Virus record (IMG/VR): IMGVR_UViG_3300038326_000410
Span: 1 to 34,104 of that record
Length of the DNA: 34,104 bases
Source: a virus
Strand: one strand, 5' to 3'
The translations under genes were made by a program, and so were the position numbers. Numbering within the stretch: the first letter of the stretch is position 1; every line of letters begins with the position of its first letter. Below, piece by piece: positions 8,111-31,025 of the stretch. Below the pieces are notes generated by a model. It ran no database searches and was not told where the DNA came from. It was given only the letters and a program-made list of their open reading frames with translations.

Positions 8111-8560
8111 CTACGGCTCCAGTGCTGCGATACGGGTTTCATAGTCCTTCAACTTCGCCTCGGTCGCGTGCCAAGCCTGTTGAAGTTGCCGGGAGACGCT
8201 CCGTTGCGTCTGGGCTGGCACCTCGAACCCCATGAACTCGGTGGGGCAAGTCACATGCTGGAAAGCGGACGACGGCATCGTACGAATGTTCGTATCGCTC
8301 ATCTCCGCGGCGGAGTCGGTCACTTGCAGACTGAAGAGGTACGTGCCCGGCTTGTCGGCCGTCAGCGTCGGTTGCGACACCGCAGGGTCTGACAACTCGG
8401 CCGTGCTCCCCTCGGGCACCTGGACCAGGGTCCAGGCGTAGGCCGTGATGGTCCGCGGAGAGTCGGCCGTTGACGAGGTGCCGTCGAGCTGGACGAGCTT
8501 CGGGAGCTGGGCAAACGGCACCTCGATTTCGGCGCCGCAGACTGCGACTGGAACGGCCAT
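8111..8560 (-). CDS. PKD/Ig-like tail protein with C-terminal coiled coil
   Basis: A 149-residue protein starts at ATG 8560, with GGGGAG three bases upstream. Residues 12-85 follow a PKD-type beta-sandwich pattern: LVQLDGTSS, then ITAYAWTLVQVPEGSTAEL, a QPTLTADKPGTYLFSLQVTD segment and a final strand. PKD-like domains often bind carbohydrate or protein partners on cell surfaces. Residues 112-148 (QRSVSRQLQQAWHATEAKLK onward) are helical with heptad spacing and could form a trimeric coiled coil. Lying just after baseplate J, it is probably an accessory baseplate or fibre protein. The domain call is by pattern. Confidence 0.65.
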   Translation of the reverse strand: MAVPVAVCGAEIEVPFAQLPKLVQLDGTSSTADSPRTITAYAWTLVQVPEGSTAELSDPAVSQPTLTADKPGTYLFSLQVTDSAAEMSDTNIRTMPSSAFQHVTCPTEFMGFEVPAQTQRSVSRQLQQAWHATEAKLKDYETRIAALEP

Positions 8561-8570
8561 GCTCTCCCCT

Positions 8571-9971
8571 TTATCGGATCACGAGGTTCGCGCCGATGAC
8601 TCGGGCGACCTCATTGTAGGCGATGGCGACATCACCCGCGGGCTGTTCGAGGATGAAGTTGAACATGCCCGGTACGCCCATCGCGCGCTCGATGGCTTCC
8701 GACCTGATGAATGGCGCCCCGACGTCGAGCCCGTTGGCGTAGTCGCCGACCCGGCGCTTGGCCTCTGCGACGGCCTCCGCGCGGTTCGCGTTGTCGTTGG
8801 ACACGACGTGGCCCTCGATCACGAATTGGCGCACGGTCGCCGGCGTCACCCCGACGTTGACCCCTGCAGCTCTCCAGGTCGGGTAGTTGATCGGATCGTC
8901 GGGGTCGCCGTCGATCAACCGTTGCGCCTCGCGAACGAGACCGGCGTAGGCGACGTACCCGCCCCAGACGAGGTCCTCGCCGGCGGCAAGGCCGGTCGGG
9001 AAGACGTCGGGGTGTAGCCACACGAACCCGCGCCCCCTCAACAGGACGTAGTCGACGTTCTCCACCAACACGCGCGCCAGGGGGGCCGCCGTGGAGTGGG
9101 TGAGGATGACGTTGCCGCGCATCGGTCGCGATGGCAGGTAGAACTCGCTCTCGCCGCCGGTGGCCTTGGCGACCGGATCCACGAAGCGGCCCGCCGCGAC
9201 GTTGAATGTCTGCGACACCGTGCCGGCGCCGTCGTCGACGTAGACGATGACCTCGCCGCGGTTGATCGGGTCCTCCCAGGCGCGCGCCGCGGTGATGCGG
9301 CGGCCGCCGACCAGGGCGGACTTCGCCCGCTCCGCGAGCGCCTCGGGGATGCACCGGGACAGGCTGCGGATGTGCGCGCGGATCCGTTGCCGGAACGGGT
9401 CATCCTTCTCGCCGTCGCGACCCGACGTGAACGGCTCCGGGTTCGTGACGGAGACCACAGTGGGAAGCCCCGTGACGATGATCGAGACGTCCCCGACTGC
9501 AGCGTCTCCGGCCAAGCCCGGGTTGACCGCCAGGGCCGGGATCTCCCCGACGCCGACCGACCGCTGAGACTGGGTCGACCCGACCGTGATCTTCCCCGCC
9601 TCGGTCGATTCGTAGAGTTGCCCGTCAAGCGCCCGCGCGACGGTCCCGACCGGGATGGGTATCTCTACGCCCGCGATGGTCGGAACGGCCCACTGGAGGT
9701 ATCCGGTCGCCCGCGATGCCCCTCGCCGGCCGAGGCCGTCGGGGATAATCTCGTTGGCGCGGCGGTCGAGGTCCTCCCCCGTCGCGCCGTCGATGCTGAA
9801 CGCTTCGAGCAGGGTCGCGATGTCGAGGTAGGCGCCCTCAAGCTCGACGGCGACGGCGCCGAACACCTGCATCATCGGTGAGGCCGGGGAGAGGTCCGTC
9901 AGCGTCGAGCGCGCGACGGCCCGGTTGACCATTCGCCGCTGTAGTTCCGCGGCGTCGACGATGCGGAACAT
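8571..9971 (-). CDS. Baseplate J-like protein
   Basis: A 466-residue protein starts at ATG 9971 with a one-base overlap (TGATG) with the upstream stop. The layout is that of the baseplate J/gp47 (T4 gp6-like) family: a helical N-terminus with GEDLDRRANEI, a beta region with IPIPVGTVARA, and then the family mark GRDGEKDDPFRQRIRAHIRS near residues 188-207, which corresponds to the usual GG.D.E.D..fR.Ri stretch. Copies of this protein form the wedge ring of the baseplate around the hub. It sits directly after the LysM-gp25 fusion, as gpJ normally follows gpW/gp25. Length is usual for the larger members of the family. Confidence 0.9.
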   Translation of the reverse strand: MFRIVDAAELQRRMVNRAVARSTLTDLSPASPMMQVFGAVAVELEGAYLDIATLLEAFSIDGATGEDLDRRANEIIPDGLGRRGASRATGYLQWAVPTIAGVEIPIPVGTVARALDGQLYESTEAGKITVGSTQSQRSVGVGEIPALAVNPGLAGDAAVGDVSIIVTGLPTVVSVTNPEPFTSGRDGEKDDPFRQRIRAHIRSLSRCIPEALAERAKSALVGGRRITAARAWEDPINRGEVIVYVDDGAGTVSQTFNVAAGRFVDPVAKATGGESEFYLPSRPMRGNVILTHSTAAPLARVLVENVDYVLLRGRGFVWLHPDVFPTGLAAGEDLVWGGYVAYAGLVREAQRLIDGDPDDPINYPTWRAAGVNVGVTPATVRQFVIEGHVVSNDNANRAEAVAEAKRRVGDYANGLDVGAPFIRSEAIERAMGVPGMFNFILEQPAGDVAIAYNEVARVIGANLVIR

Positions 9972-11731
9972 CAGACCCTCCGACTCACTAGGACCGGGCC
10001 GCCGAGTGCTCGCGGCTGCAACGTCAGGACGGCAGAGAGCGAGTCTCCGCCCTCGACCAGATCCACATCTACCACGCGGCCGGTACGCGGGTCCTGTAGC
10101 GCGGCGCGTCGGGCCGACACCGCGACGGCCTCGGGCATGCCTGCGCCGTTCTTCTCGCCGACCGGCCGGAGCATCCCAGACCGCGGGTAGACCGTGTTCT
10201 CACCCAACTCTGTCAGGAACAGGACGCGCTCTACGTTCTGGATGTAGGCGTCCATCCCTGAGACATAGACGAAGTCGTCGCCGGCGGCGTTGACCTCGAA
10301 CCCGCCGACGTCGGTGAGCTTCAACGTGGTGCCGAGCACCTCCCGCTCAAGGTTCGCGATGTCCCGCTCGATGGTCGTCGTCTGGCCGCCATCGCCCAGG
10401 GTCGGCAACAAGAGGCTCTGCCCGGGGCGGACAGTCCGCCCCATGCCGGTCGGGCTGATGTAGGGGGCGCGCAAGTCATTGAGGCTCGCGAGGTCGACCC
10501 ACGCGGCCGGATCGCCAACCTCGTTGATGGCGATCGAGCGCAACGTGTCGCCGTGGAGGACCACGTACTCGCGGACCCCGCCCCAACTGCGCGACCGGCC
10601 GTAGCCGCGGGGCCGGAGCCGTCGCGCGGCCGACCCTGGCTGAACCCGTGCCCCGAGCTGCAGAGAGCCGTCGCCGCTGGCCTCCAGGGCCGTAAGCGAC
10701 TGCTCGCCACTGGATAGGCGGCGGCGGTCCCGTTGCGCGCTGTCCAGATCGCGTCGCCATAGGGACGCCTCGATGATCGCCGCGTCGAGCGCGCGCTCGC
10801 AGTCGCGGGAGCTGCGCAACATGGCGCCTGCCATTGACTGGGTGTGGAGGCCGGGCGCCCACGGGACTCGTTGCAACTGCCCGTCCTCGTCGAGCCCCAT
10901 GACACCCAGGATCAAGGTGATGAGGTTGCCGACGGCGTCTCGCGCCTCCTCGACGAGCCGCCGGGGCGCGCGGACCAACCCCTGAGCCGCCCGCACGACG
11001 CCCTGGATGGCCCCTGCGGCCTCGTTCACGGCGGCGATGGTCTGGCGGACCGGCTGGACGAACGTCGCGTCCACCTCGCCCAGGAACGCCTCGGCGTCAG
11101 CGATATAGCCCACCACGCTGAGTATCGCGCCGTTGATCGCATCGGCCACGTCCCGAATCTTGCCGAAGAGGCCGGAGACGCCTTTGACGTCGAGCGCGTC
11201 GACGTCGAGGACCGCGGTGAACTCCAACTCGTAGGGGTAGTGGAGGCGGTGTTGGCCCGACGACCGGTCCTCGGCCATCTCCGTCGGGAGAATCAACCAG
11301 TGCCGCCCGCCGCGGAAGTCGTGGAACACCATCGCCCAGCGAGTGCTCGCGTCGGGGTTGCGCTTCGTCGCCCAGTAGAAGTCGAACCACTTCCGAAGCT
11401 CCTTGTGCAGTTCGTTGCCGTCGGCGTAGGTCAGGCCGCTTTGCGGGTTCAGGGGGTCGTCGCTCTCCAGCCGCCAGCCGCGTTTGTGCTCCAGGCCGGT
11501 CGTGCCGCTGATCGTGATGTCGTGCAGGACCACACCGGACTCTTCCAACGCGACGCCGCCTGCGAGCTGGCTGACCTGTGCGCCGGGCCGGGTCTTGATA
11601 CTGATCCGCTCCGGGTTGATCGGGAAGTTCCACACGCGGTTCGCACCGCGGCCCGAGCCGTCGAGCGCCACCAACTCGAAGGCGTAGGTGAGCCTGAATC
11701 GGCTCGGCCTCTCGATGGGGTTGACGGCCAC
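9971..11731 (-). CDS. Baseplate protein, LysM (gp53-like) fused to gp25-like domain
   Basis: A 586-residue protein starts at GTG 11731, overlapping the spike stop by one base (TAGTG). Residues 1-180 form a beta-rich N-terminal domain with INPERISIKTRPG. Residues 200-345 are helical. Residues 388-443 form a LysM domain (YVVLHGDTLRSIAINEVGD, then a VRPGQSLLLP end), as in T4 gp53-like baseplate proteins and contractile injection systems. Residues 470-585 look like a gpW/gp25 wedge domain, with YIQNVERVLFLTELGENTVY matching the usual i..AI..iL.T..GEr. stretch. No separate gp25 gene exists in the window and baseplate J follows at once, so the fusion stands where gp25 would be. The LysM call is firm. 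The gp25 call is by pattern and position. Confidence 0.8.
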   Translation of the reverse strand: MAVNPIERPSRFRLTYAFELVALDGSGRGANRVWNFPINPERISIKTRPGAQVSQLAGGVALEESGVVLHDITISGTTGLEHKRGWRLESDDPLNPQSGLTYADGNELHKELRKWFDFYWATKRNPDASTRWAMVFHDFRGGRHWLILPTEMAEDRSSGQHRLHYPYELEFTAVLDVDALDVKGVSGLFGKIRDVADAINGAILSVVGYIADAEAFLGEVDATFVQPVRQTIAAVNEAAGAIQGVVRAAQGLVRAPRRLVEEARDAVGNLITLILGVMGLDEDGQLQRVPWAPGLHTQSMAGAMLRSSRDCERALDAAIIEASLWRRDLDSAQRDRRRLSSGEQSLTALEASGDGSLQLGARVQPGSAARRLRPRGYGRSRSWGGVREYVVLHGDTLRSIAINEVGDPAAWVDLASLNDLRAPYISPTGMGRTVRPGQSLLLPTLGDGGQTTTIERDIANLEREVLGTTLKLTDVGGFEVNAAGDDFVYVSGMDAYIQNVERVLFLTELGENTVYPRSGMLRPVGEKNGAGMPEAVAVSARRAALQDPRTGRVVDVDLVEGGDSLSAVLTLQPRALGGPVLVSRRV

Positions 11732-12699
11732 TATGAGCCCCTGATCTGGCTGGACGCTGTCGCGATGGTACCAAGCGCGAGCGCCGGCGGCGCGTCCGCG
11801 TCACCGGGGACCGGCTCCTCGGGGACGACGGGGAGCCCTACAAGCGGGCCGCCCTGGTCGTTCACCCACGTCGCGATCGTCGCCAGGGCCGCGACCGTGC
11901 TTCTGACGAACGCGTTGAAGTTGGGGCTCCCCGCCGAGGTGATGGCGACCGCGTCTGCGAGGCGCGCGAGCGGTCGGTTGCCCGCGAGCAGATCGACTTG
12001 CGGCACCCCGTCGACCACCGTGACGCGGAACCGACGCACCCCGCCCTGGCGGATGATGATCGGCTGGCCCTCGCGGACGTTGACGTCGAGCAGGCCGCCG
12101 CCGGCCGCCTGGACGCCGTCCTCGGCAGTTCCAGCTCGCGTCGCGTCGACGGTCACGTTCCCCTGCTCGTCGATGGCGCAGATCGTCCCGACGTGCGCCA
12201 CGTCCCGGCGCCACCCCTTGACCTCCTCGCCGGCCGTCCCGTCTGCGGCCGGGTCGGGCGCCACACTCGGGCCGGCGCCGTGCGTTCGAGTCGACCGGGG
12301 GTGGTCAACGCAACCGAGCACGATCGGGGCGCCGGCCTGACCGGCGATGAAGCCGACCAGGACCCACTCGCCGTCCACTTGCTCGGGGTCGACCGCGAGC
12401 GCGCCTTCGCTGGCCTCCCAGGCGAGCGGTTGGCCGTCCAGGGTCTTCGTGCCGGGCCGCGGGTGCCACCGGGAGCCGGAGCGGACACCGAGCCCGTGAT
12501 AGGTCAGCGGGACCCGGTACAGCGGGTCACCGTTGAGCGTGAGTATGTCCACCGTGAGCGCCCCCGGCCGGTGCCGGTCTGCCGGGACCTCGTCGGCGTA
12601 GTGGACGGCCATCACGACGCCCTTCGCCAACGGCATTGCGGCGCGGTAGCCGCCGTAGCGTATGAGGTTCTCGGGGACGGGCGGTTGGAAGGCCCACAT
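11731..12699 (-). CDS. Baseplate spike protein, gpV-like
   Basis: A 322-residue protein starts at ATG 12699 directly after the hub stop. Residues 28-135 form an OB-fold-like domain, ending in EWVLVGFIAGQAGAPIVLGC, the mark of gpV/gp5 N-terminal domains (a strand, glycines, then pviLG). The following region (160-235) has repeating beta segments such as CAIDEQGNVTVDA and LDVNVREGQPIIIRQGG, suited to a trimeric spike shaft, and the last 60 residues are helical and then proline-rich. In this family the trimer sits under the hub and pierces the outer membrane or cell surface. No lysozyme domain is seen. The place between hub and LysM protein is canonical. Confidence 0.85.
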   Translation of the reverse strand: MWAFQPPVPENLIRYGGYRAAMPLAKGVVMAVHYADEVPADRHRPGALTVDILTLNGDPLYRVPLTYHGLGVRSGSRWHPRPGTKTLDGQPLAWEASEGALAVDPEQVDGEWVLVGFIAGQAGAPIVLGCVDHPRSTRTHGAGPSVAPDPAADGTAGEEVKGWRRDVAHVGTICAIDEQGNVTVDATRAGTAEDGVQAAGGGLLDVNVREGQPIIIRQGGVRRFRVTVVDGVPQVDLLAGNRPLARLADAVAITSAGSPNFNAFVRSTVAALATIATWVNDQGGPLVGLPVVPEEPVPGDADAPPALALGTIATASSQIRGS

Positions 12700-14430
12700 C
12701 TATACGGGCCTTTCGCCAGGGGGCCACGTCGTCAGCGGAGCGCCCGCCGTTCCGCTCGGGTCGGACGTCTCAACCAGACCCGGCGGCGTTGCCGAAACCC
12801 CGCCCAAAATGTCCCTCATTCCTCGCGTGGCCGACATCGTCGTCACCGCCGCGTCCTTGCCGTCGTCGGACCTCGACCATGAATGGCTGACGCCCTCGCA
12901 ATAGTAGTATTCGACATACGCGCCCTTGGCCCGCGCGACGTTTATGCGCTCACCGACCCGCACCCCTGGATACATGTGAGTCGTCGCGAAGCTCCCCCCC
13001 ATGTGCTCGTGCGCCCTCGCGGACCAGTCCGCGAGCTGGCGGCTCCACAGGTAGTACGTCCCCATCCCGATCCCGTCGGTCGGCATGTACTTTGAGACGT
13101 CCTCCTGTCGTCGCCATCCGACCGTCCTGGCGCTGCGGCCGTCCTCCCTCGCGATGATCGGCAGTCGGCCCTGCCCTGCAGCTCCGAGCGCCAGCGTGTA
13201 CGGGCTCGCCCCGTAGCTCTCGTGCGGCAAGCACAGGAAGAAGTTCTTCCGGTGCTCGTCCGACGTCATCACGGAGTCGTGGTTGAATTGGCGCTCGTCG
13301 AACGTCGTGACCGGCAACCCGCGCCAGCGGGCAACGCCGGACGGCCGATCCGGTATGTACGCGTAGCCCAGGTTGGTCGTGTCCACGCGAGCCCACGACG
13401 GAAAGGGCTTCGGCCGAAGACAGACGGCGAGGTCCCACGGGAAGTCTCCGGCGTCGAGCGCGGTCATCGGGCGGCGGTAGTCGTCCGGGGTCATCGGCCG
13501 TTGGCCGAACTCTGCCGGGAGGAGGTCGCACCAGAACTCGTTGAATGCCGGGTTGGCCCACTCGTGCAGGTAGTCCCAAAGCGGCGACCTGGGGAGCCCG
13601 GCCATCACCTCTTGAATCACCGCGCGGCCGTCGGTGGGCTCCACCTTGAACCTGAGCAAGTCGCCCAGGGGGGCTCCCGCCCACCCCGCCGGGAGGTCGG
13701 GCGGCTTTGGCACCGGGAAGATCGGCGGAGTCTCCCACGCCGGCGTTGCGCCCGACTGGTACGGGGTGCCGTTGACGTCAGTCTGCCGCCAGTGCCCGAG
13801 GAAGAACAACGCGAGCGGTTGGACGATGTCGGACGGGGAGATCCCGAAGCTCTGCCCCGGAGCTGGGACGCTCTGCTCGCCGCCCAACTGATCCCAGATG
13901 CGCGTCATCTTCCCGATCGTCTTGTAGAAGGCTCCGTCAGCGAGCACGGCGTCCATGCCTTCAGGCGCCTTGAACTGCGGCAGGGAGATTATCTCGTGAA
14001 CCTCCAACGGATAGCCGTGGTCGCCTCCGCTGATGACCCATATCTCGCTGTCCTGCAGGCCCTGCCGCGTACGGTGGATCCCCTTAACCGGGCCGATCAT
14101 CAGCGGGTAGGTGTGCCGGTCGATGCGGATCGCGATCATCGCCCAGTCACCAGCGGTGATCCGGTCGAACCAGTCGTGGTGCTCGTCCGCGACGACGTAG
14201 TTGGCGCCCGACGCGAGGCCGCGGCCGATGGCGCGCGCCTTGACTGTCACCTCCCAGGTCCCCGACTCCCACCGCTTATCCGTCTCTAGTTGGTTGCAGT
14301 AGGGGGAGAGGTCAATGACCTCGCCGCCGTGCGTGAAGACGTGGACGACCGGCTCGTAGAGGTGCGACTTGTTCACCCAGACGTCGGGAGTCAGGCCCCC
14401 GATGGAGTCCGACGCTGGCTCTAGGCCCAT
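12700..14430 (-). CDS. Baseplate hub protein
   Basis: A 576-residue protein starts at ATG 14430 in a one-base overlap (TGATG) with the tape measure stop. The frame stays open upstream to 14592, but that part is antisense-like and covers the tape measure end. The first 150 residues are beta-rich (WEVTVKARAIGRGLASGANY, then DWFDRITAGDWAMIAIRIDR), like the ring domain of gp27/gpD hubs that caps the tube. The last 110 residues include YVEYYYCEGVSHSWS and a closing MSATRGM phrase, typical of hub C-terminal strands. A central proline-rich insert (about 235-300) is unusual. No protease or lysozyme motif is visible. The hub binds the spike, encoded next. Confidence 0.75.
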   Translation of the reverse strand: MGLEPASDSIGGLTPDVWVNKSHLYEPVVHVFTHGGEVIDLSPYCNQLETDKRWESGTWEVTVKARAIGRGLASGANYVVADEHHDWFDRITAGDWAMIAIRIDRHTYPLMIGPVKGIHRTRQGLQDSEIWVISGGDHGYPLEVHEIISLPQFKAPEGMDAVLADGAFYKTIGKMTRIWDQLGGEQSVPAPGQSFGISPSDIVQPLALFFLGHWRQTDVNGTPYQSGATPAWETPPIFPVPKPPDLPAGWAGAPLGDLLRFKVEPTDGRAVIQEVMAGLPRSPLWDYLHEWANPAFNEFWCDLLPAEFGQRPMTPDDYRRPMTALDAGDFPWDLAVCLRPKPFPSWARVDTTNLGYAYIPDRPSGVARWRGLPVTTFDERQFNHDSVMTSDEHRKNFFLCLPHESYGASPYTLALGAAGQGRLPIIAREDGRSARTVGWRRQEDVSKYMPTDGIGMGTYYLWSRQLADWSARAHEHMGGSFATTHMYPGVRVGERINVARAKGAYVEYYYCEGVSHSWSRSDDGKDAAVTTMSATRGMRDILGGVSATPPGLVETSDPSGTAGAPLTTWPPGERPV

Positions 14431-16130
14431 CAAGGTTTTGCCCCGCTCTTGCCGCTTCGGCCCGTCCCCGGCGGGACCCCGCCGCCACCCACGCCGCCGG
14501 TGGCCGTCGTCGTTTTGGTCTTTGTTTTGCCGCCCGGCTTTGTGTGGGTCGGCTTGGCCGGGGTCGGCTTCTTCTGCCCGAAGATGGCCCACAGGGCCTT
14601 CGCCGCGCCGGCCATGTCGCCCTTCCCCATCGCCTCGATCGCCTTGATCATCCCGTTGACTCCGGGCAACACGAGCTTTCCGACGATCATGTTCTTCGTC
14701 GTCGCCATCGCCACGTCGAGCGTCTGGATGGCGCCGAGGTGATCGGACACCGTGTCGACGTCCATCCCGGTTATGCGCGCCTTCGTCTTCGCGAGGGACC
14801 GCTGTTGGCCGGAAATCCGCCTACCAACCGTGCCCTTCATCCCCGCCATCCCCTTCGTCAACGGGTCGCCGTCGAAGCCTCTCTCACCGACCAGGAGGGC
14901 CATAATCTCGTTCCCGTGCATCTGCGGAAACGCCTTGCGGAGCATCGCCCAGGCGTAGCCGATGCCGCCGCCCGCGCCCTTGGCTCGGTTGAGGACGCCG
15001 CCCATCAGCTTCTTCTGCATCCCCGGGAATTGGCCGATGTTCTCCATCATAAATTGCCGGTCGAAGTGGTCCGAGTTCGGCATCAGGTCGCCCATGATGT
15101 CGTGGAGCATCGCCTCCGCCATAGGCGACCCTTGCCCCTTCCCGGTCCCTGCGATCGAGTCCAGCCAGCGGCCACTGGCCCTCACGCCCCCCAGGCCCTT
15201 GAACACCTGCGAAAGGTTGACCTTCCCGTGCGAGGCGCCGCCCGCCTGGAGGAAGGTCTCGGAGAGGGTCGCGAGCGAGTCCGAGGTGATCGCAAGGCCC
15301 TGCTCGGCCATCTTGCCGGTGTAGCTCGCAATCTCGCTCAGGTACTTGCCCATCATCACGCCGCCGACGGCGCCGCTGCTCTTGGCCTGCGCCATCGCAA
15401 GGTTGAGGGCGTACTTCTCTTCGCCGGCGCCTCCACCCTCGATCCCGCCGCCCGCGCGGAATTGACCAAGGAAGCCGCCCATTGTCCCGGTGTCGATGCC
15501 GAACGCCTCACCGGCCCGCAAGTATTGCCTTTGGACTTCGCCGCTCTTGAGCCCGCCCCCCCACCCGGCGCCGAGTAGCTGCTTCTGTCGTTGGTACGTC
15601 TCGGCCGGATCCCACCCCAGGCCCGCCCCCATGGAGCGGAGGTTGGGCGCGTAGCCATCGGCCGACGCGGCGCGCAAGTCGCCGCGCCCCTTCTCCATCG
15701 CGAGGTAGCTCGCCTTCATGCCGTGCAGGCCCATCAGGCTACCGGCCAGCGCCCCGCCGACCATCGGACCAATGATCGGCACCGCTTTGATGAGCGACGA
15801 GAGCATGCCCAGGCCGGGGGCCTGATTCATCGACCTGTGAAGCGCCCCGACGGCCCGCCCGGTGTGCGTGTTCTTGAGCTTGTCTTCGCCCCACCGCTGC
15901 GTCCGGGCGATTACGCCGCCGTTCTTGTCGGTGCCGCCGCCGCCGCCGCCGCCACCACCCCCGCCGCCGCCACCACCCCCGCCGCCACCGCCACCGGTGA
16001 ACTGGCCCTGAGCGTTCCTGCCCTGGCCCGCGTTGGCGACCTGAGCCCCGAACCGGTCGAGCTTTGGCCCGGCGCGGTCGAGTTCCGACGTGTCGACTTT
16101 GATCTTGATCGCGGTTTCGTGCTGGCTCAC
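14430..16130 (-). CDS. Tail tape measure protein
   Basis: A 566-residue protein starts at GTG 16130 in a GTGA overlap with the second chaperone frame. The first 35 residues (AIKIKVDTSELDRAGPKLDR) have the usual tape measure opening. Residues 46-66 are 21 consecutive glycines. A hydrophobic stretch, LIKAVPIIGPMVGGALAGSL, fits the membrane segment common in tape measures. The C-terminal 50 residues are low-complexity and rich in Lys, Thr, Pro and Gly. By the usual relation of about 1.5 angstrom of tail per residue, the tail would be near 80 nm, an inference that ignores the flexible ends. It is short for a contractile phage. Confidence 0.85.
   Translation of the reverse strand: MSQHETAIKIKVDTSELDRAGPKLDRFGAQVANAGQGRNAQGQFTGGGGGGGGGGGGGGGGGGGGGTDKNGGVIARTQRWGEDKLKNTHTGRAVGALHRSMNQAPGLGMLSSLIKAVPIIGPMVGGALAGSLMGLHGMKASYLAMEKGRGDLRAASADGYAPNLRSMGAGLGWDPAETYQRQKQLLGAGWGGGLKSGEVQRQYLRAGEAFGIDTGTMGGFLGQFRAGGGIEGGGAGEEKYALNLAMAQAKSSGAVGGVMMGKYLSEIASYTGKMAEQGLAITSDSLATLSETFLQAGGASHGKVNLSQVFKGLGGVRASGRWLDSIAGTGKGQGSPMAEAMLHDIMGDLMPNSDHFDRQFMMENIGQFPGMQKKLMGGVLNRAKGAGGGIGYAWAMLRKAFPQMHGNEIMALLVGERGFDGDPLTKGMAGMKGTVGRRISGQQRSLAKTKARITGMDVDTVSDHLGAIQTLDVAMATTKNMIVGKLVLPGVNGMIKAIEAMGKGDMAGAAKALWAIFGQKKPTPAKPTHTKPGGKTKTKTTTATGGVGGGGVPPGTGRSGKSGAKP
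15933..15995 (-). repeat. GGN codon run encoding 21 glycines in the tape measure
   Basis: Twenty-one consecutive GGN codons (GGC, GGT and GGG mixed) encode residues 46-66 of the tape measure protein. The mixed codons argue against a simple sequencing slip and suggest that the glycine run is maintained as a protein feature, perhaps a flexible linker. Confidence 0.9.
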
Positions 16131-17365: not shown

Positions 17366-19870
17366 CTACAGGCGCAGAGACAGGCGTTGAGCGAACGCCT
17401 GCACACCGATGAAGTTCAGGGGCTCGATGGGCTCGACCTCGTAGCTCAGATCGAAGGCGTCGCCCAGGTCGTCGACGACGACCGACTCGGGGTTGAAGGA
17501 CTTGATTTCGCCGTCGTCGATCTGGCGCTGCAGCTCGTAGATCGCGAGCGACCGGACGGAGCTTGTCAGTCCGTCGAAGTTCTTGGCGCCGATCTTCGGC
17601 CGGAGCGCCCGCCGCATGTTGAACACGGAGTCGTCGAGCGACTCGTTCGTGCTCTGCTCGGTGAAGAACGGGTTGTCGTCGTCGCGGTAGGTCGTGACGC
17701 CACGCACCAGGGTCCGCCCCTGGAAGATGACGGCGCCCGCGGCGACCAACTCCTCGGCGTCCGCAACGGGGTCGATGCCCGCGTTGTAGACGAAGCGCAG
17801 CGCGTTGAAGACCTTGTCGGTCATCGGCGTGGCGGTCGGCGAACCGCAGACGCCAGCGGCCATGAGCACCGCGGCGCCCCACGCCTTGATCGTCTGCTCG
17901 TCTCCGGCGTCGTTGTAGATGACCGGCTGTGCGGGTGTCGCTTGGCAACCGCGATGATTGAGCGCGGCGATCGCGTCCTTCACCCCGGCCTTGTCCAGCG
18001 ACGACGCGAGCCCGACGAACCACATGCGCTCGTGCTTGCCGTCCAGGTCGCGGAGGTCGGCCGGAGCCAGGGCGTGGACGGGTGCGGAGTCCGAGAGGGC
18101 TACCGTCGCCATGCGCGAAGGCTTGAACGCCTCGTCGCCCATGCTGAGTGCCTTCGCGGCCGCGATCCCAGCTCGCCAATGGTCCATCGTGGTCGTGCCG
18201 TCGGCGCCGCCACTGAGGTACACGCGGGACGCGGTCGGGCTCGGTGCCCCTCCAGCTCCCGCGAGCGAGACGGCGGTTGCCAACTTCGAGAAGTCGACGA
18301 CGTGCTTCGCGACGTCGGCGAGCACGGCGGCGAAGAGGACCTCGGCACCGGCCTTGATCTCCTGGCTCGCGCTGTCGAGCGAGGCCACCAGATAGGCGCT
18401 GTCCCGCTTGTTGGTCGCGGTCACACCTGGAAGCCCGTTGAGGAACGACACCGCGTCGCGCAGCTTCGGGCGCTTGGCGATCGTGATGTCCGCGCCGGTG
18501 CCCGCGATGTCCAGGGTCCGGCCCGCGGTGATGGCGCCAATCTCGATTTGCGACACCGACACGAAGTCGGCCGTCGACAACGTGGCCGCGGCCGTGGGCG
18601 CGATGTACTCGGCGACCGCCGAGCCGTCCCGAGCGATGCCGCGCACCACCATGAACTCACCGCCAGCCGCGGCGGAGAGCGAGTGCGTGATCTTCCCGTC
18701 GAAGAACATCGTGTCGGGTTGCCAGAGGCCGTCCGAGACGTTGATGCCCGCCTTGTTGGTCCCGGCGGCCATTGAGAAGCCGGCCGTGTCGTCGCTGTCC
18801 TGGCGCACGCTGACGGTGCCCGCGTGAGCGGCCATCACCTCGGCGCTGAGTACCTTCGCGAAGGTCAGTAGCCCGTCGACCTCGGTGACGCCGTTGAGCG
18901 CGATGACCTCGCTGATTGCGTTGCCCTCGGCGCTGCGCCCCTTCACCAGGACGTTGATCCCGGTGTCGGCCGCGTCGGTGCTGATGACGTTCAAGATCCC
19001 GGTGATGCCGGCGAGGAGCGTCGCGGGGACCGTGAAGACGTCGTTGTCACTCGTCGCGCTGCGGACCGTGATGATCCCGGCCGTCGCGCCATCCACGCGG
19101 ACGGCGGTGACCTTGTCGAACGCGACCGCGCCGGCGACCACGCCCGCGCCGGCGAGGCTGATGACCTCGGACGCCGGGGTGTCGCCCGCGGTGGTCCCGT
19201 AGACTGTGACCTTCTGGAAGTCGTCGTAGGCGGCGGCTGAGAAGACCTCGACCAACTCCCCGGCGACGTCCTGGGCACCGTCCCAGGGGACCGCGACGAT
19301 CGACTGCGTGTAGTTGAGCTTGAGGCCGGTGTCCGCCTTCACCAGGGCCATCGCCCCGGCTTCTCCGACGTACCGGGCGCCCAACGCGGCATCGCCGCCG
19401 ACGTCGTCCCAACTCTCGGTTTTCTCGTCGAGGGTGACGGTGACCTTGCGGCCCTTCGCCGTCCCCAGGGCGATGTCGACCCCGATCCGGTTGGCGAAGT
19501 CGCCCCAGTCCCGCGACGTGACCGTGAGCACGTCTCCGCCGCCGTCGCCGAAGCTCGCGGCCGCCTTCAGGGCGGGGTTGGTCTTGTAGGTGAAAACGAA
19601 CGGCGGTCGGCCCGGGATGCCCGAGTCTCGCGCCGGATCGAACGCCATCAGGGCCGCGGTGCGCAAGTCCCCATCTCGGAACTCTTTGCGGATGCTCGCG
19701 GGCCGCGTCCAACTCTTGAGCACGCCCGGCTCACCGCCGACGCCCTCCCCGATGAGCAGGAGGATCTTTGCCCCAGGGGAGCCCAGAGGGACCCCAACCG
19801 GGGTCACCTCGGAGAAAACGCCCGGAAGCCGAGTGCGGCCTTGCGGGGTGAGAAACGACGACGCCGGCAT
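17366..19870 (-). CDS. Tail sheath protein with three inserted beta modules
   Basis: An 834-residue protein starts at ATG 19870, eight bases after AGGAG. An open frame continues upstream to 20302 but runs through the previous gene. The opening, RTRLPGVFSEVTPVGVPLGS, and the C-terminal half (DAVSFLNGLPGVTATNKRDSA through to RPKIGAKNFDGLTSSVRSLA) follow the sheath pattern, with the C-terminal arm that links rings. Sheaths are usually 350-660 residues, so this one is long. The extra length is explained by three similar beta modules, about 218-288, 289-375 and 385-467. Contraction of the sheath drives the tube through the cell surface. The modules would decorate its outside, by analogy. Confidence 0.88.
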   Translation of the reverse strand: MPASSFLTPQGRTRLPGVFSEVTPVGVPLGSPGAKILLLIGEGVGGEPGVLKSWTRPASIRKEFRDGDLRTAALMAFDPARDSGIPGRPPFVFTYKTNPALKAAASFGDGGGDVLTVTSRDWGDFANRIGVDIALGTAKGRKVTVTLDEKTESWDDVGGDAALGARYVGEAGAMALVKADTGLKLNYTQSIVAVPWDGAQDVAGELVEVFSAAAYDDFQKVTVYGTTAGDTPASEVISLAGAGVVAGAVAFDKVTAVRVDGATAGIITVRSATSDNDVFTVPATLLAGITGILNVISTDAADTGINVLVKGRSAEGNAISEVIALNGVTEVDGLLTFAKVLSAEVMAAHAGTVSVRQDSDDTAGFSMAAGTNKAGINVSDGLWQPDTMFFDGKITHSLSAAAGGEFMVVRGIARDGSAVAEYIAPTAAATLSTADFVSVSQIEIGAITAGRTLDIAGTGADITIAKRPKLRDAVSFLNGLPGVTATNKRDSAYLVASLDSASQEIKAGAEVLFAAVLADVAKHVVDFSKLATAVSLAGAGGAPSPTASRVYLSGGADGTTTMDHWRAGIAAAKALSMGDEAFKPSRMATVALSDSAPVHALAPADLRDLDGKHERMWFVGLASSLDKAGVKDAIAALNHRGCQATPAQPVIYNDAGDEQTIKAWGAAVLMAAGVCGSPTATPMTDKVFNALRFVYNAGIDPVADAEELVAAGAVIFQGRTLVRGVTTYRDDDNPFFTEQSTNESLDDSVFNMRRALRPKIGAKNFDGLTSSVRSLAIYELQRQIDDGEIKSFNPESVVVDDLGDAFDLSYEVEPIEPLNFIGVQAFAQRLSLRL
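18470..19219 (-). repeat. Three tandem beta modules in the sheath gene
   Basis: The insert codes for three diverged copies of a 70-90 residue unit: module 1 at 19007-19219 (SEVISLAGAGVV ... GIITVRSATSDNDVFTV), module 2 at 18746-19006 (SEVIALNGVTEV ... GTVSVRQDSDDTAGFSM) and module 3 at 18470-18718 (AEYIAPTAAATL ... RTLDIAGTGADITI). Each has the order: a strand with VxG, a strand with EVI, a strand with FxKV, and a strand of TVxVR type. The similarity is visible at protein level, and weaker in the third copy. Confidence 0.6.
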
Positions 19871-19881
19871 CGCGGGCTCTC

Positions 19882-20559
19882 CTACGTCCTCTCGCCCGTC
19901 ACACGGCCTTGATGGCCGAGTACGAGCGCGGTGGTGTTGGCAGCGTAAAGTTCTCGCGACGGAGCTGGCATCGGCAAAGCGACGGAGACGATGCCTCCGA
20001 ACGACCATTGCTGGCGCCGAAGGTAACACGTCTCGGGCAAGAGTCGCGGATCTGGCGCAATCTCGCCGCCGGTCTCGAAGCGGGGGTCGATCAAGATCGT
20101 GCGTTGCATCCACTCGATGTGAGCGATCATCGCGTAGTTGACCCAGTGGTACAGGTAGAGCGTGAGGTTCGGGTTGTCGCTGTAGACGATGACGTCGATC
20201 GACTGGCGCCGGACCTCGCCCCGGATGCCCAGCTCCATCTCCATCCCGAGGTACTCGTCCTCGGTCCGCTCGCTCGCCAGGGTGAGCCCGATCACCGGCC
20301 AACTCCTCGTGTCGCGCTCGTAGCCGTACCGGATGTTGAACGGCCGGGCGGCCATGAATTGGCGGACGTTCGTGCGCTCCGTCTCGTCGACGAAGCAGAG
20401 GAGCCAGTCCCAGTGCCGCGGGTCAATCTCGAATTGCCGCCGGGCGTTCTCCAGGGCGGCGTACACGATGCGCTCCGAGAACGCGTAGTTCTCGGTGACG
20501 ACCCCGTCGAGAGGCCCGTCGCCCGGGACTACGGCCCCTTCGTCGAGTCGGTCAGTCAC
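19882..20559 (-). CDS. Tail terminator candidate
   Basis: A 225-residue protein starts at GTG 20559 in a GTGA overlap. It has a helical start (TENYAFSERIVYAALENARR) and mixed alpha-beta content, with aromatic strands such as SIDVIVYSDNPNLTLYLYHW. A place directly before the sheath is typical of the tail terminator or T4 gp15-like protein that caps the finished tail and binds the head. I do not recognise a specific family, so the call is by place. Another neck protein is possible. The length is a little longer than most terminators (130-270 residues). Confidence 0.5.
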   Translation of the reverse strand: MTDRLDEGAVVPGDGPLDGVVTENYAFSERIVYAALENARRQFEIDPRHWDWLLCFVDETERTNVRQFMAARPFNIRYGYERDTRSWPVIGLTLASERTEDEYLGMEMELGIRGEVRRQSIDVIVYSDNPNLTLYLYHWVNYAMIAHIEWMQRTILIDPRFETGGEIAPDPRLLPETCYLRRQQWSFGGIVSVALPMPAPSRELYAANTTALVLGHQGRVTGERT

Positions 20560-29510: not shown

Positions 29511-31025
29511 CTAGATGTGGAGCTGCGGGGCGCTCTGGTCACCCGGGACCACGATCTTCTCCAGGCCGGACTCGGGCTTCACATTCTTGATCAAGACGTG
29601 CTGCCGCGGGGTGCCGATCTTGAGGGCGACGAACAGGAGCAGCGCCCAGCGGAACGAGGTGTCCAGGTTCCCCAGGGGGAAGTTGAACATCGGCAGGAGT
29701 TGCATCATCTCGATGCTCTCCTTCCGGTTCGTCACGATGAACATCTCCGAGGTCCCCGGGAGGTCCTCGTTGAGGTCGATGATGACGAGGTTCGCGCCGT
29801 TGGCCGGAGCGCCTAGCTCCTTGATGAGCGTCGCCTCCGATGCGGTGGTGACGCCGGCCTCGGTCCGGTAGAGCAGGAAGCCGGTGGCCGACTGCAGGCT
29901 GTTCGGGACCGCGCCGTCCTTGACGGTGAGGCGGATGTCCTTGCCGGCCTCGGTCGCGATCGTGTTGGTCGCCACCGGGGCGGAGACGCCCGCCTCGTTG
30001 ATGGCCGCGACCTGATACTTCACGTCCCCGATGGGACGGCCGGCGCCGACGCCGAACTTCGAGGTCGTGTCCACGTTTGGCGCGGGCTGCGCCACGATGA
30101 TCGGAGACACGGGACGCCGACTCGCGTCGGGACCCTCACCCAGAGGGGACGCCTTCGGAGACTCCTCGATCACCAGCGGGTGCTTGATGATGTTGACGTT
30201 CTCGCCCTCGTTGTTGTGGTCGAAGCCCATCTCCGAGAGGCGGTAGTTGGGGTGGAACCGGTCACCGAGCATCGAGCGCATGCGGCCGGCGTAGAGCTGG
30301 CGCAACGTCTTGTGCATCCGCGGGGAGCAGAAGAGGTCGGTCGGGTGACCCCAATTCGGCTTCTCGCAGGCGATCTCCATCGCCTCGTCGATCAGGGCCT
30401 CGGTCGGGGTCTGTCCGGCGGCGTCGAGCACCAGTCCCTCACGCTCCATGATCGGCTTGAGGCCGTCGAACGCGTAGGGGTTGATCGAGTTGTCGCCGTA
30501 GAACATCGCGAACTCGGCTGCTTCGAGCAGTTCGAGCGAGCCGTCCGCATTCTGCTTTTTTACGGCTCCGCCAGGAACGATGTTCTTGACGAGGCGCGCC
30601 TGGATCGGGAGTCGGCGGACCGACCCCAGGTAGCGCATCTTGAGTTGCTCCAGCGAGAACGTGCTGTCCGACTCGGGCGGCAATCCGCCCTCCCGGTGGA
30701 ACAGGAACCGCCGTCCGGCCGAGCCGGGCGAGTGGTGCCGCACGAACTGGTGGACGGTGCTCCACGCCTTGCCCTTGGAGACCTTGTTGAAGCCCAGGAT
30801 GTGCTTCGAGTTGAACGCCGTGTTGTGCAACACGTCGTCCAGGTCCTGGGGCACGGTCGCCATGAGCTTGCCCGGGGTGAGGTCACCCGGGGCCGCGGGG
30901 AACACGTCCCCGACTGACATCGCCTTCAGGAGGTCGCCGACCCCCTGAAAACCGAGCAGTTCCGCGAGGACTCCCCCCACGTCACCGCCGCCGGCGAAGG
31001 CTCCGTCTCCGATTCCGTCGAACAT
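29511..31025 (-). CDS. Major capsid protein with inserted beta domain
   Basis: A 504-residue protein starts at ATG 31025 eight bases after AAGGAG. Residues 50-290 and 426-504 look like the parts of an HK97-fold capsid: LPIQARLVKNIVPGGAVKKQ, ACEKPNWGHPTDLFCSPRMH, and the C-terminal strand EMFIVTNRKESIEMMQLLPM with TSFRWALLLFVALKI. It resembles the SU10-type group most, by my reading. Between them, residues about 303-425 form an added domain (IGDVKYQVAAINEAGVSAPV, then FLLYRTEAG) with the pattern of a fibronectin III or Ig fold. It follows the scaffold-like gene, as usual. Such added domains can stabilise a capsid or decorate it. Confidence 0.85.
   Translation of the reverse strand: MFDGIGDGAFAGGGDVGGVLAELLGFQGVGDLLKAMSVGDVFPAAPGDLTPGKLMATVPQDLDDVLHNTAFNSKHILGFNKVSKGKAWSTVHQFVRHHSPGSAGRRFLFHREGGLPPESDSTFSLEQLKMRYLGSVRRLPIQARLVKNIVPGGAVKKQNADGSLELLEAAEFAMFYGDNSINPYAFDGLKPIMEREGLVLDAAGQTPTEALIDEAMEIACEKPNWGHPTDLFCSPRMHKTLRQLYAGRMRSMLGDRFHPNYRLSEMGFDHNNEGENVNIIKHPLVIEESPKASPLGEGPDASRRPVSPIIVAQPAPNVDTTSKFGVGAGRPIGDVKYQVAAINEAGVSAPVATNTIATEAGKDIRLTVKDGAVPNSLQSATGFLLYRTEAGVTTASEATLIKELGAPANGANLVIIDLNEDLPGTSEMFIVTNRKESIEMMQLLPMFNFPLGNLDTSFRWALLLFVALKIGTPRQHVLIKNVKPESGLEKIVVPGDQSAPQLHI

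Follow-up and report, generated by a model that had tools for sequence, protein, structure and literature searches.

The window, that is, the whole stretch of 34,104 nucleotides analyzed here, comes from a viral record that is itself a 34-kb fragment. It contains an open reading frame of 586 amino acids with a GTG start (9971..11731, minus strand) that encodes, from the N to the C terminus, a tail-tube initiator domain, a helical region, a linker, a LysM domain and a gp25 domain. The next gene (8571..9971, minus strand) encodes the baseplate J or BW2 wedge protein (PF04865, E 4e-16; phrog_6, E 2.8e-38). Its start and the stop of the fusion gene overlap by one base on the same strand, which confirms the placement of the C-terminal part directly before baseplate J in the initial annotation. 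The gene preceding the fusion (11731..12699, minus strand, 322 aa) is a hub or spike candidate with a weak match to SPO1 gp12.2, and the one before that (12700..14592, minus strand) is a hub candidate for which no PDB match was found. Homologues of both stand in the same order in the related loci L113, L102, L068, L142, L119 and L053, and the whole order of two hub candidates, fusion and baseplate J is common to L113, L102, L068 and L142. As read, the second hub candidate (630 aa) overlaps a probable tape measure gene (14430-16130, minus strand, 566 aa, with a poly-glycine stretch); translation probably begins instead at the ATG at 14430, which would make the protein 576 aa long (MGLEPASD...).

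Directly after baseplate J lies a gene for a 149-aa protein with a PKD domain (8111-8560, minus strand; PF22352, E 4e-12). The tail sheath is encoded at 17366-20302 (minus strand, 978 aa; phrog_279, E 4e-32), with residues 176-969 matching positions 32-480 of the 489 in the phrog_279 profile; this reading frame has a large extra segment, and its N-terminal start is doubtful. A major capsid protein of the SPO1/PHB04 type is found at 29511-31025 (minus strand; phrog_752, E 2e-56), with 28% identity to that of Bordetella phage PHB04. The head and tail modules thus both point to a distant kinship with Herelleviridae and PHB04.

The C-terminal part of the fusion protein consists of a LysM domain of the gp53/BW4 type (residues 385-447; 10391..10579, minus strand) followed by a gp25 or sheath-initiator (BW1) domain (residues 455-575; 10007..10369, minus strand), which includes the stretch YIQNVERVLFLTELGENTVY (residues 495-514). 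In a PHROG scan the baseplate family phrog_975 matched residues 387-570 (E 4e-17), and the alignments with phrog_975 and with chain 9euf_L both begin at residue 387. A profile built only from other phages in which LysM-gp25 is a protein of its own matched residues 385-575 with E 6.4e-31 and 93.4 bits, against a best score of 7.3 bits among 1000 shuffles of the fusion protein. SPO1 gp14.1, which passes the PF10934 sheath-initiator cut-off and matches LysM and PF04965 weakly, is 35% identical to this part (E 7e-23). When the LysM-gp25 family profile was compared with PDB, the best match was ORF61 of Staphylococcus phage 812 (9euf_L, E 7e-52), followed by T4 gp25 and then by the sheath initiators of pyocin, diffocin, Afp9 and Pvc9.

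The predicted structures agree with these assignments. In the AF2 model of the whole chain, the LysM domain has a pLDDT of mostly 80-94 for residues 381-440 and lower beyond, and a separate model of residues 446-586 (141 residues; pLDDT 87.4, pTM 0.78) superimposes on the crystal structure of T4 gp25 (5iw9_A) at 1.9 Å over 100 columns. The latter model also matched E217 gp34 (8env_H, TMt 0.77), 812 ORF61 (9euf_L) and the diffocin and Pam3 initiators; non-gp25 folds were not matched well. On the fusion protein, a divergent gp25 copy, the Pfam profiles PF04965, PF10934 and LysM all stayed below threshold, and in the fused relatives L119 and L018 PF10934 scored 5e-5 and 9e-6, likewise under its cut-off. 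Since the curated Pfam cut-offs are not reached, the gp25 assignment is based on family profiles and fold. The initial annotation had recognized a gp25 domain behind LysM and had proposed to verify it by fold and by PF04965: profile, alignment and predicted fold agree on the domain, so that the proposed check is passed, with PF04965 itself staying below threshold.

Gp25 proteins carry an EPR motif. At the corresponding position of the fusion protein, before the last beta hairpin, the alignment places DPR (residues 546-548; 10088..10096, minus strand), which aligns with the DPR of SPO1 gp14.1; the aspartate and the arginine of this site are almost invariant in alignment A5. A second match to gp25 or a sheath initiator was not found within the 34-kb record, in agreement with the initial annotation, which had noted no separate gp25 gene in the window. 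Like the members of phrog_975, the fusion protein carries LysM and gp25 in that order on one chain; it departs from their size (about 200-250 residues with no further domain) with its 586 residues and its N-terminal tube initiator.

The tail-tube initiator domain occupies residues 16-176 (11204..11686, minus strand). PF23980 (putative phage tail tube initiator) matched residues 22-174 with E 5.7e-6 and 26.6 bits, 0.4 bits under its cut-off of 27, and reached E 0.01 or better in 30 of the 46 rows of alignment A4. In addition, phrog_1011 matched residues 28-176 in the PHROG scan, SPO1 gp13.1 matched the N-terminal part with E 4.7e-10, and a profile of separate tube initiators matched the fusion protein with E 1.7e-16 and 46.6 bits (best of 1000 shuffles, 6.4 bits). 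Foldseek related the tube part to 812 ORF59 (9euf_M, E 7e-6) and also to Mu gp43, Milano and the AFP/PVC initiators. The initial annotation had taken the LysM part for the tube-end protein; that function belongs instead to this separate N-terminal domain.

Between the two ends lie a helical region (residues 188-340; 10712..11170, minus strand), with AF2 helices at 188-217, 222-248, 254-278, 297-326 and 329-340, and a linker (residues 341-384; 10580..10711, minus strand) that is arginine-rich and predicted to be disordered (pLDDT <50 for residues 340-379). The length of the linker varies among relatives. By analogy with the baseplate centrepiece proteins of Milano and pyocin, the helical region is likely the counterpart of their wedge-joining helical domain.

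For the whole chain, the AF2 model has a pLDDT of 75 and a pTM of 0.38; the tube-like, LysM and gp25 domains are confident, and because of the low pTM their mutual arrangement is left unpredicted. The best PDB matches of this model were 812 ORF61 and ORF59, followed by Mu gp43, Milano and the contractile injection system (CIS) tube initiators. The two best PDB matches of the family profile (A4) lie side by side, ORF59 at profile positions 24-249 and ORF61 at 288-474, so that centrepiece, BW4 and BW1 are united in this one gene; what is said here of the phage 812 baseplate (9euf) follows the PDB titles and chain lists. We therefore consider it highly probable that one gene here encodes a tube initiator, a LysM glue domain and a gp25 sheath initiator, as if the tube-initiator and LysM-gp25 genes that stand side by side in other phages had been united, with the baseplate role proposed below. 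Domain layout, homology, the folds of the individual domains, recurrence and gene order are results; assembly, copy number and what becomes of the linker are inferred. What sets this gene apart is that its fusion has three parts and places tube and sheath initiators on one chain; each pairwise fusion is already known. A description of such a three-part fusion was not found in open PMC papers.

In the baseplate, six copies of the protein would be located between hub and wedges. The N-terminal domains would make up a hexameric ring at the base of the tube, from which the tube polymerises; helices and LysM domain would hold adjacent wedges together, and the gp25 domains would offer the sheath its first handshake by accepting the arms of the first sheath ring. 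The fusion would impose a fixed 1:1:1 copy number, with tube and sheath starting at the same place. In both Milano and pyocin, wedges are joined through the helical domain of the centrepiece (PMC10811340). In phage A-1(L), wedge helices, two sheath initiators and one tube initiator surround one LysM domain (PMC10966104). Parts that are fused here would thus be neighbours in space.

The tube of a contractile tail slides out of its sheath, with the tube initiator on one side of the sliding surface and the sheath initiator on the other. In most other phages these parts are made as two or three proteins; here the two sliding parts of a sliding machine are joined. On contraction the tube would be driven out, with gp25 staying with the sheath, and the joining segment (about residues 177-384) would have to be cleaved before or at firing, unfolded or pulled free. 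In pyocin the moving tube extrudes the centrepiece on contraction (PMC10811340). For phage 812, ORF61 is present in the PDB entry for the post-contraction baseplate (9eui), and the only entries listing ORF59 are 9euf, 9eug, 9euh, 9tic and 9tid. Taken together, the extrusion in pyocin and these entries imply that a fused chain would have to yield within residues 177-384. A chain carrying both initiators would need cutting or unfolding as an inherent step, or else restrict the distance that the tube end can travel, and the fate of the centrepiece at firing becomes testable in a natural variant.

As to how the chain gives way, one version of the three-part explanation, concerned only with the fate of the chain, is that the fusion is a precursor whose linker is cut by a phage or host protease, so that the virion holds a separate tube initiator and a LysM-gp25 protein. 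There is precedent in Alg7 of AlgoCIS, a tube initiator-LysM protein that is cleaved in its linker, between the tube domain and LysM (PMC8894135), and whose LysM domain is still visible in the post-firing baseplate (PMC13314943); the arginine-rich linker, predicted to be disordered, also fits. For Milano, however, PMC10811340 takes the corresponding connection of tube and helical domains to be present, and we regard cleavage of the precursor as quite possible, if short of probable. We also propose, tentatively, that the mature virion keeps the chain intact, with tube and sheath covalently joined at six places and the linker serving as a tether or fuse that breaks or unfolds for firing. By simple arithmetic (about 3.5 Å per residue), 45 disordered residues could span about 150 Å, and residues 177-384, if unfolded, about 700 Å. 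At 1.5 Å of tail length per tape measure residue, the probable tape measure here (about 566 residues) points to a tail near 850 Å long, with the tube travelling a few hundred Å.

The C-terminal pair has close counterparts. In the Milano, PVC and AFP particles, BW4 (LysM) is the C-terminal domain of the baseplate centrepiece, and in SPO1-like phages it is fused to BW1 (gp25), as in A511 gp102 (PMC10811340). The SPO1-like (Herelleviridae) proteins of phrog_975, such as SPO1 gp14.1, A511 gp102 and 812 ORF61, likewise have LysM followed by gp25 and are encoded directly before baseplate J, but they are only 200-250 aa long, compared with 586 aa here, and their tube initiator is encoded by its own gene (SPO1 gp13.1, 812 ORF59). 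In SPO1 another gene stands between gp13.1 and gp14.1, whereas here both parts are on one chain. Another reading, proposed in the initial annotation, is that the gene is a two-part fusion of LysM and gp25, unusual in that the two are normally separate, with LysM as the tube-end protein. LysM and gp25 do share one chain, but this combination is ordinary in SPO1-like phages, having been published for A511 gp102 and solved in 812 ORF61, and with the tube-end function in a separate N-terminal domain the two-part reading is very improbable. The rarity of the LysM-gp25 pair was thus rejected.

The chain up to and including LysM resembles a different set of proteins. Milano gp25, Mu gp43, Afp7, Pvc7 and Alg7 combine a tube domain, a helical or linker part and LysM in one chain and were matched by Foldseek, but in all of them gp25 (BW1) is a separate protein. 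PHB04 and Touem01 have the same parts in the same order, directly adjoining and with about the same total length, but as two proteins, a tube initiator of 385 residues and a LysM-gp25 protein of 205 residues, whose genes overlap by 4 bases. The locus can be seen as an example of baseplate gene merging, from separate to overlapping to fused genes. One isolate, Myxococcus phage Mx1, carries the fusion: both profiles match its protein, and 93% of a fused relative is covered (E 2e-106). This protein (WNM70261.1) unites a tube initiator with LysM and gp25 in a single chain of 806 aa, longer than the one studied here, and has additional segments both within the tube part and from LysM to gp25; it is annotated only as a baseplate assembly protein, and its adjoining genes include no annotated baseplate J.

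For a wider survey, loci were collected with a degenerate DNA pattern that was checked on the window, yielding at least 119 viral stretches and 19 genome stretches; these counts do not measure frequency. Single queries with the fusion protein or its sheath found no relatives in viral contigs, plasmids gave one weak match, and the diverse alignments A1 and A2 were too poorly conserved for scanning. When the separate-protein profiles were run on 141 loci, both matched within one open reading frame in at least 34, a few of them near-copies; with filters off, at least 43 reading frames carried both. The fusion is present in many unrelated contigs and in a Planctomycetota genome bin. In the phylogenetic tree the window, a long branch, groups with the fused loci L119, L103, L142, L113, L053, L102, L116 and L068 (SH-aLRT 93, below the starred level). 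A single clade of all fused rows was not rejected (p-AU 0.54), and the tree is indecisive on a single origin.

This recurrence also bears on a further alternative, namely that an error of sequencing or assembly turned two genes into one: a single indel could merge genes of the PHB04 type, since their 4-base overlap involves two different frames, but codon-position GC keeps to one frame across the entire reading frame (9971-11731; third position 75-95%), the joining segment with its helices and linker is also present in relatives, and the same fusion occurs in unrelated contigs, the Planctomycetota bin and Mx1, which leaves such an error a negligible prospect. Assembly error was rejected on the basis of recurrence and codon bias.

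Other arrangements were seen among the collected loci. L016, L026, L042, L051, L055, L076, L077, L090 and similar loci encode a LysM-gp25 protein with an N-terminal extension of 250 residues that has no tube-initiator match; in these, a separate tube-initiator gene stands just upstream. In L044 (585-1964) and L115 (465-1886), on the minus strand, the LysM-gp25 proteins are 459 and 473 aa long, with the family-profile match spread over the whole length, suggesting that each may contain a large insertion.
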